The notes under the pieces are model-generated. The model had not been told where the DNA came from and searched no databases. It saw nothing but the letters and a program-made list of their open reading frames with translations. Positions 26,536 through 27,901 of a stretch of 64,000 nucleotides of DNA are shown here, piece by piece (position 1 is the first letter of the stretch; every line of letters starts with the position of its first letter). The DNA is taken from NCBI GenBank assembly GCA_017410375.1, contig JAFQQW010000066.1, positions 1 to 64,000 of the forward strand. Direction: 5' to 3'. The position numbers and the translations under genes are program-made. The stretch comes from Clostridia bacterium. GTDB taxonomy: Bacteria; Bacillota; Clostridia; RGIG6154.

Positions 26536-27432
26536 GTGCAGGGTACCATTTTCAACATTCAGAAATTTTGCATCAATGACGGACCGGGAATTCGTACCAC
26601 AGTATTTTTAAAGGGCTGTCCGCTCCGCTGTGTGTGGTGCCACAATCCCGAATCCCAAAGGGTTGCACCTGAGCTGATGTTTGACCCCCAAAAATGCATC
26701 GGCTGCGGAAAATGCTTTGCAGTTTGTCCGAAAGAAGCCCACAGCATGACAGAAACTGCACACGTTTTAGACCGTGAAAAATGCGTTGCCTGCGGCGCCT
26801 GTGCTATAAACTGTTATGCCGAAAGCTTAGAGATGGCAGGCAAAACCGCAACGGTGGACGAAATTTTAGAAGAGGTTATGAAGGATGAGGCATTTTACCA
26901 AAATTCCGGCGGCGGCATGACCTTATCGGGCGGTGAGCCTCTGGCACAACCCGAATTTTCGGTTGCCCTTTTAAAGGGGGCAAAGGAAAAAGGGTTACAT
27001 ACCGCAGTGGAAACCTGCGGATTCTCGGCAAAAGAAATTTTTAAATCTCTTGCTGAATACACTGATTTATTCTTATTTGACTGGAAAATCACCAATGATA
27101 GCCTGCACAAAGAATATACCGGTGTTTCCAATGTGAAAATTTTGGAAAATTTAGAGCTTGCAAACCAAATGGGCAAGCAGATTGTTCTGCGTTGTCCCAT
27201 CATCCCTTCCGTGAACGACACAAAAGAACATTTTGCGGGCATTGCAGATTTGGCAAACCGTTTAGAACATGTTATCGGCATTGACGTCGAGCCGTATCAT
27301 CCGTTGGGAACGGGTAAAAACGAACGGCTGGGCAAGGAAGCAAAAGCCTTTGAAATGCCGGAACCCGACACCGTAAACGGCTGGATTTCCGACATTCAAA
27401 AACTAACAGCAAAACCTGTAAAAAAAGGATAA
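26536..27432 (+). CDS. Glycyl-radical enzyme activating protein (radical SAM)
   Basis: A 298-residue activase of the PflA type. The radical-SAM cluster motif is C28-x3-C32-x2-C35 (GCPLRCVWC). Two extra 4Fe-4S clusters are held by C54/C57/C60/C64 and C83/C86/C89/C93, as in activases of non-pyruvate glycyl-radical enzymes. SGGEPL is also present. It starts with GTG 2 bp after the HD gene. No glycyl-radical enzyme lies next to it or anywhere in the window, so the partner is elsewhere or absent. Confidence 0.9.
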   Translation: MQGTIFNIQKFCINDGPGIRTTVFLKGCPLRCVWCHNPESQRVAPELMFDPQKCIGCGKCFAVCPKEAHSMTETAHVLDREKCVACGACAINCYAESLEMAGKTATVDEILEEVMKDEAFYQNSGGGMTLSGGEPLAQPEFSVALLKGAKEKGLHTAVETCGFSAKEIFKSLAEYTDLFLFDWKITNDSLHKEYTGVSNVKILENLELANQMGKQIVLRCPIIPSVNDTKEHFAGIADLANRLEHVIGIDVEPYHPLGTGKNERLGKEAKAFEMPEPDTVNGWISDIQKLTAKPVKKG

Positions 27433-27436
27433 AATT

Positions 27437-27901
27437 ATGGAATTGCTGAAACGAAAACCCACAAGATTAAAAGGATATGATTATTCTGCACCGGGTGTGT
27501 ATTTCATTACCATTTGTACAAAAGACAAAAAACATCTGTTGTCCGAAATAACCGTAGGGCAGGGGCTTGCTCCTGCCGAAAATACATTGTCTGTATACGG
27601 AAATGTTGCAAGACAACAGATTGCTCTTTTAGAAAGCCGTTATCAAACAGTTAAAATTGATAACTTTGTGGTCATGCCCAATCATATACATCTTTTGATT
27701 TCTTTGCATAATCAGACGGCAGGAGCAAGCCCCTGCCCTACAATTTCTGATGTTATTTGTTCTTTTAAATCTTTGACAACAAGGTTATGCCGAAAAAGCG
27801 GATTTAAAGATACGCATTTGTTTCAATCTTCTTTCCACGACCATATTATCCGAAGTGAAGAGGATTATCAAAAAATATGGGCATACATAGACACAAAATA
27901 A
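27437..27901 (+). CDS. REP-associated tyrosine transposase (RAYT, Y1_Tnp)
   Basis: A 154-residue HUH/Y1-type transposase. The family core YFITICTKDKKHLL is at the N-terminus, the HUH pair is H83/H85 in VVMPNHIHLL, and the likely catalytic Tyr is Y144 in EEDYQKIW. The reading frame is complete. Two GTAG-led palindromes lie within it in opposite orientation and are translated in frame (residues 40-48 and 94-102). It sits 4 bp after the activase gene, so it may have arrived in the operon recently. RAYT proteins cut and move REP palindromes. Confidence 0.9.
   Translation: MELLKRKPTRLKGYDYSAPGVYFITICTKDKKHLLSEITVGQGLAPAENTLSVYGNVARQQIALLESRYQTVKIDNFVVMPNHIHLLISLHNQTAGASPCPTISDVICSFKSLTTRLCRKSGFKDTHLFQSSFHDHIIRSEEDYQKIWAYIDTK
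27554..27578 (+). repeat. REP-like palindrome, copy 1, inside the RAYT gene
   Basis: GTAG followed by GGCAGGGGC-TT-GCTCCTGCC, an imperfect hairpin with a G-rich left arm. The leading GTAG matches the tetranucleotide that RAYT enzymes are known to recognise. It is identical to copy 2 on the other strand over 25 bp. Confidence 0.85.
27717..27741 (-). repeat. REP-like palindrome, copy 2, inverted
   Basis: Exact reverse complement of 27554-27578. The GTAG ends of both copies face outward and the hairpins face each other, as in a two-REP BIME arrangement, 138 bp apart. Confidence 0.85.

Follow-up and report, generated by a model that had tools for sequence, protein, structure and literature searches.

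A gene for a REP-associated tyrosine transposase (RAYT) of the TnpA-REP type carries an inverted pair of GTAG hairpin REPs inside its own open reading frame in the window, by which we mean the whole 64,000-nucleotide stretch of DNA from a Clostridia bacterium that was analysed. The window gene belongs to a widespread RAYT lineage in which the REP pair lies in the coding sequence, and it is probably a dying member. We consider it rather probable that a RAYT of this kind, with its cognate inverted REP pair inside the ORF in two surface loops, constitutes a linked enzyme-substrate unit. The sequence-only reading from which this study started is right in kind but too narrow: it took the REPs for insertions peculiar to this gene, and most relatives of the class hold a REP pair at the same positions, with other sequences.

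The RAYT gene and its surroundings

The features discussed here are collected in Table 1.

Table 1. Features of the RAYT gene and its neighbourhood (positions in the window)
Feature	Position	Strand	Basis
Upstream gene, putatively of the glycyl-radical activating enzyme type	26536..27432	+	ORF and translation; family from cysteine/ferredoxin-like motifs
RAYT gene, TnpA-REP type, 154 aa	27437..27901	+	NF047646, PF01797, 4er8 relative, alignments
REP 1 (site 1), GTAGGGCAGGGGCTTGCTCCTGCC, GTAG and hairpin, encodes VGQGLAPA (residues 40-47)	27554..27577	+	exact 24-mer
Inter-REP segment, contains the HUH motif (MPNHIH)	27578..27717	+	
HUH motif codons H83-I84-H85 (protein MPNHIH)	27683..27691	+	H83 and H85 invariant in homologue alignment
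REP 2 (site 2), identical to REP 1 on the opposite strand, codes for about residues 94-102	27718..27741	-	exact 24-mer
Codon of catalytic-type tyrosine Y150	27884..27886	+	invariant column in homologue alignment
Terminator-like hairpin and T run, immediately 3' of the RAYT stop codon	27902..27927	+	read from sequence

In the profile search the ORF matched NCBIfam REP_Tyr_transpos (NF047646) with E=4.7e-19 and 68.7 bits, which does not reach the curated cut-off of 80 bits; the C-terminus of the protein is truncated and the two REP loops are present. The match to Pfam Y1_Tnp (PF01797) lies above the cut-off (28.7 bits vs 23). The E. coli TnpA-REP structure 4er8 was the best relative by sequence, and the comparison of the fold with 4er8 gave TM 0.61/0.58 and an rmsd of 3.5. 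The Y1 domain has the HUH motif and the single catalytic tyrosine of a RAYT, and this gene is the only RAYT gene in a genome that is 96% complete. Only 4 bp separate the end of the upstream gene from the RAYT start, an intergenic space too small for a 5' flanking REP, and no GTAG hairpin REP was found within 1 kb on either side of the RAYT.

The C-terminus of the window copy (27884-27901) reads YIDTK*, and the NPxKWxxDCFY tail of close relatives is missing. At the position four residues past the tyrosine this copy has Lys, and at least 90% of the homologues in the alignment have Asn. In E. coli TnpA-REP an Asn about four residues past the catalytic Tyr serves as third metal ligand (N119; PMC6006769); this Asn is present across the family and lost in the window copy. 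Because both the metal-ligand Asn and the C-terminal tail are lost, the window copy is, judging from its sequence, probably inactive now. The inactivation seems to be recent, as suggested by its two REPs, which are still identical.

The REP pair inside the ORF

Each of the two REP copies has GTAG at its start and forms a hairpin, as had been proposed from the letters alone; the stem measures 8 bp. The reading frame stays open through both sites, with site 2 translated as TAGASPCPT and site 1 as the peptide given in Table 1, again in agreement with that proposal. The inverted pair in the Y1 transposase gene is real, but its exact identity covers 24 bp rather than the 25 bp first claimed, the 25th being a flanking base. 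In 100 shuffles of the window the expected number of matches for a pair of the 24-mer GTAGGGCAGGGGCTTGCTCCTGCC was 0, and these shuffles ruled out a chance origin of the inverted pair. The folding energy of a single isolated copy, computed as DNA, was modestly better than that of shuffled sequences (z -1.7 and -2.3), a weak result which was not used as evidence; the strength of the REP case therefore lies in repetition and comparison.

In the AlphaFold2 model of the protein (pLDDT 89.7), the residues encoded by REP 1 form the turn between strands 36-39 and 48-51, and those encoded by REP 2 form a low-confidence loop leading from the HUH strand (83-90) to helix 103-120. This helix comes after the HUH strand like the DNA-binding helix of TnpA-REP (alignment to 4er8; PMC8266576). 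Both REP-encoded segments are, in the model, surface loops able to accept extra residues.

The REP family of the genome

Pattern searches of the genome that contains the window gave 11 members of the REP family. Nine of them lie outside the RAYT gene, and all nine are intergenic. The exact 24-mer occurs six times (two copies in the RAYT, three in tandem on contig C58 and one between era and ybeY on C55), and five variant copies have other stems and the common GGGCTTGCTC centre (one on C31, two on C58 and two on C61). A twelfth pattern match, on C50, was rejected, being inside a gene and not a hairpin REP. The copies on C58 (L018, 1995-2400) lie in three near-identical tandem units with a REP in each. 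In two of the units a REP of a second stem type, GTAGGGAACGGGCTTGCTCGTTCC or a variant differing by one base, faces the first at a distance of about 9-14 bp, a REPIN-like layout.

The family has the GTAG foot, the short hairpin and the mostly intergenic repeats of the GTAG super-family of REPs, and a RAYT with associated GTAG hairpin REPs repeated in its genome is thus present. The sequence-only reading had looked for many intergenic copies as proof of a REP family; the family is real, but it is small. The usual REP copy number is above 100 per genome according to PMC2817692, and the count in the window genome is far below that figure.

RAYT relatives carry REPs at the same two sites

A search of the family and order covered six genomes and gave one partial homologue. 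RAYT relatives were collected from a scan of genome contigs and from 391 genomes of the class, and 398 genomes of the phylum served as control. Among 133 full-length RAYT ORFs, a hairpin came after GTAG more often than after any other tetramer (118/320, vs 1.6% for all tetramers and 13/450 for GATG), and the GTAG hairpins clustered at model position 39 on the plus strand and 103 on the minus strand. When the hairpin criterion was relaxed to a folding energy of -6 or lower, the 133 genes gave 73 GTAG hairpins at site 1, 107 on the minus strand and 27 on the plus strand of site 2, and 5 elsewhere. By this relaxed criterion, 65 of the 90 class-level RAYT genes (a few duplicate loci included) had both sites occupied, 15 had site 2 only, 3 had site 1 only and 7 had none. 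After de-duplication, both internal REPs were present in 60 of 97 class-plus-phylum RAYT genes. In the phylum control both sites were occupied in just 2 of 20 RAYTs, and most of the others had flanking REPs.

At the class level 67 of 68 REPs at site 1 share a codon phase, and site 1 has a single orientation, with site 2 inverted relative to it; site 2 occurs in three codon phases. The tree indicated that REP sites have been gained and lost repeatedly, and the state with both sites occupied changed at least 5 times on supported branches and 19 times on the best tree. At site 1 some genes have arrays of in-frame REPs with short coding spacers, about nine in L239 (about 1150-1560) and three in L199 (about 1110-1260). 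In Bacteroidota RAYTs site 2 is often a 27-30 bp double-foot palindrome (L035, L043, L048, L055, L065, L069, L076, L088 and others), in many cases GTAGAGAC..GTCTCTAC, translated as VETxxLxVST-like peptides, and some of these RAYTs have a double-foot palindrome at site 1 too (L069).

These patterns bear on the main rival explanation, in which the REPs are passive passengers: REPs would frequently land in RAYT genes, which are close to where the enzyme acts, only insertions in two flexible loops would survive, the pair would be without a role, and the two copies would match either because the current family inserts again and again or because the inverted copies undergo gene conversion. The modelled surface loops agree with this explanation, as do the arrays at site 1, the three codon phases of site 2 and the repeated gain and loss, and the site 2 region has been called a peripheral, variable region of little expected impact (PMC6006769). 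However, if the insertions were random and tolerated, one would expect both orientations, no effect on the flanks, and decay; the explanation is opposed by the single codon phase and orientation of site 1 with an inverted site 2, by stems kept through compensatory change and by a pair that seems to replace the flanking REPs, as described below. We regard passive, tolerated insertion as unlikely, though it deserves to be taken seriously.

Matched DNA hairpins, not peptides, are conserved

Site 1 and the reverse complement of site 2 in the same gene have an identity of 0.920 (62 non-redundant pairs), vs a mean of 0.704 when site 1 and site 2 were taken from mismatched genes, and the highest value of 10,000 permutations was 0.75. 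The divergence of site 1 is correlated with that of site 2 when protein divergence is given (partial r = 0.69). REP types are specific to clades: RAYT relatives with more than 75% protein identity outside the loops have a common REP type, and below 75% the type differs, at both sites together. Where the two REPs of a gene differ, 59 changes lie in the loop or foot, 18 are compensated in the stem, 11 are G-U and 11 break a pair; several of these 11 lie in flanking bases past the REP. This pattern of loop and compensated changes indicates that each single-strand hairpin is kept, rather than a long stem between site 1 and site 2.

A role of the hairpins in the RAYT mRNA, in which local hairpins or the long stem would control the translation or decay of the transposase message, is quite improbable. 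Although the two copies are able to pair over 24 bp in the transcript and a role of REPs in RNA has been proposed for other cases (PMC3733652), the differences between the copies preserve the local hairpins only, and the long-range stem was rejected as a selected feature on this ground. Moreover, GTAG stands at the 5' foot on opposite DNA strands, so that on the mRNA only site 1 has GTAG, and identical sequences are scattered between genes.

We give next to no weight to the explanation that the two segments are ordinary protein sequence, i.e., conserved loops whose inverted DNA similarity is coincidental. The occupation of the same positions in homologues would fit it; the peptides, however, differ from gene to gene while the DNA hairpins are retained, translation passes through the REP in opposite directions at site 1 and site 2, and the identical intergenic 24-mers refute it. 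The homologue alignment, which had been suggested along with the REP claim as the place where conservation of the segments as ordinary protein in all relatives might appear, gave another picture: the positions are indeed shared, but the DNA hairpin is conserved there and the peptide is not.

Members of the closest RAYT clade, from several host families, have the same REP type as the window gene. Among 54 genomes, identical 24-26 bp REPs were also observed in RAYT-bearing genomes of several families, which is consistent with a horizontal spread of RAYT-REP units.

Internal and flanking REPs

Flanking REPs are nearly absent where the gene has both internal REPs. Any flanking GTAG hairpin was found for 15 of the 60 genes with both internal REPs vs 33 of the 37 others, and REPs on both flanks for 2 of 60 vs 13 of 37 (Fisher p 3e-10 for internal vs flanking REPs, with counts that are not independent owing to kinship and partly come from one clade). 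The tree offered 5 supported contrasts, too few for significance, in which the flanks changed in the opposite direction in 2-3 and in the same direction in essentially none. Since the genes with both internal REPs are mostly without flanking REPs, the internal pair appears to stand in for the flanking one. The earlier statement that the enzyme gene is itself a two-REP unit can thus be extended to the relatives, where the internal unit largely takes the place of flanking REPs. In genes with site 2 only, a matching partner often lies just upstream, identical to the internal REP in L137, L155, L157 and L160; the inverted pair therefore seems to be kept in these genes, with its left member outside the gene.

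Extragenic copies were present in 4 of 6 genomes with the matching RAYT type vs 8 of 48 others by hand count, a weak association which is suggestive only. In one genome (G215) 45 REP copies were found, and 0 of 21 inspected copies (20 regions) was clearly intragenic. Another genome (G128) has no REP copy outside its RAYT.

REP-bounded deletion derivatives

In two loci the HUH segment between the REP sites is gone: L058 (3115-3142) has a single double-foot palindrome, GTAGGGGCGATTCACGAATCGCTCCTAC, with the frame open, and L223 (about 1114-1143) has the double-foot palindrome GTAGGGGACGATGAAGGCATCGTCCCCTAC with the frame shifted. In four N-terminal RAYT stubs (L224, L233, L234 and L235, where L234 and L235 come from different genomes in a single genus) the similarity ends at the 3' end of REP 1. 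A ribosome-binding-site-like stretch and the start codon of the next gene come directly after REP 1 in L234 and L235. The breakpoints of the broken RAYT copies L228-L230 are not at a REP. Most genomes with deletion derivatives are fragmented assemblies, in which assembly error at REP junctions is possible, and replication or recombination is as possible an origin of the deletions as cutting by the enzyme.

The proposed linked enzyme-substrate unit

In the favoured reading, that of a linked enzyme-substrate unit, each internal REP would be a hairpin of single-stranded DNA, specific to one strand and with GTAG as its guide, and the intact enzyme may bind and cut it, by analogy with E. coli TnpA-REP, which does so with its own REPs. 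A REP pair inside the ORF would keep the enzyme and its substrate physically joined, and the two, being joined, could co-evolve and move between species as one unit; this linkage may be the reason why the pair is kept. The internal pair might also serve as a resident source from which the scattered REPs of the genome were copied, a role which is not evident everywhere because the copy number is low (11) and G128 has no extragenic copy.

More tentatively, the internal REPs could be working ends, on which the enzyme or replication acts in the gene itself. Acting so, they would replace the flanks, couple the specificity of enzyme and REP through horizontal transfer, and occasionally delete the HUH module, a self-inactivation that would leave a double-foot REP (L058, L223) or a stub ending at REP 1 (L224, L233-L235). 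We think this possible and would not call it probable.

The embedded pairs address the question of why the tie between RAYTs and flanking REPs persists and how the enzyme and REP specificity change together. The lineage provides dozens of natural enzyme-substrate pairs, each on one DNA fragment, and it is a case in which the DNA sequence of a gene, not the peptide, is kept at two loops. Synonymous recoding could separate the DNA-hairpin role from the protein role.

Comparison with known systems

The TnpA of the IS200/IS605 family (IS608, ISDra2) has the same HUH-Y1 fold and is likewise an enzyme recognising subterminal hairpins. In IS200/IS605 elements the hairpins lie at the two ends of the element, on either side of the transposase gene. 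Here, by contrast, one RAYT gene is present in the genome, the hairpins are internal, and no IS-like unit and no left or right end was seen. Intragenic GTAG/CGTC REPs and the Rickettsia palindromic elements (Di Nocera et al. 2013, PMC3733652) are also palindromes translated in frame, but they are found in many unrelated genes and mostly at varied positions, whereas the REPs described here have a fixed site, orientation and partner, in the gene of the REP's own enzyme.

According to the abstract of Nunvar et al. 2010 (PMC2817692), a RAYT ORF always has an inverted pair of REPs flanking it. The classical RAYT or REPtron of E. coli and Stenotrophomonas resembles the present case in having one RAYT, two inverted cognate REPs, further copies in the genome and REP-RAYT co-evolution. 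The window RAYT differs from it in that the pair is internal and the two flanking REPs are missing from the 1 kb on either side.

The closest known system is the TnpA-REP subclass 2.4 of Quentin et al. 2018 (PMC6006769), which corresponds to group 4 of the RAYTs in Bertels et al. 2017. In-frame REPs have already been reported in RAYT genes of this subclass (PMC6006769). The internal REPs of that subclass are additional to the flanking ones and lie generally between HUH and Y, and its authors suggested that double-foot REPs might come from the central deletion of an inverted dimer (PMC6006769). The homologues of the window gene show the motifs NHIH, IWQ and YIDTNP (NH[IFV]H, WQ and YIxNNP in the subclass), an in-frame REP between HUH and Y, i.e., site 2, and both long canonical and double-foot REPs; the window gene itself has FQ and YIDTK instead of WQ and YIxNNP. 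The relatives thus fit subclass 2.4 by their motifs and by the REP between HUH and Y, and site 2 is therefore already known. In open-licence papers, including the main text of PMC6006769, we found no description of a fixed pre-HUH site, a matched pair, flank replacement or REP-bounded RAYT deletions. Unlike what is described for subclass 2.4, the genes analysed here have a second fixed site before the HUH motif (loop 40-47), their two REPs form a matched inverted pair, and this internal pair stands mostly in place of the flanking REPs rather than in addition to them.
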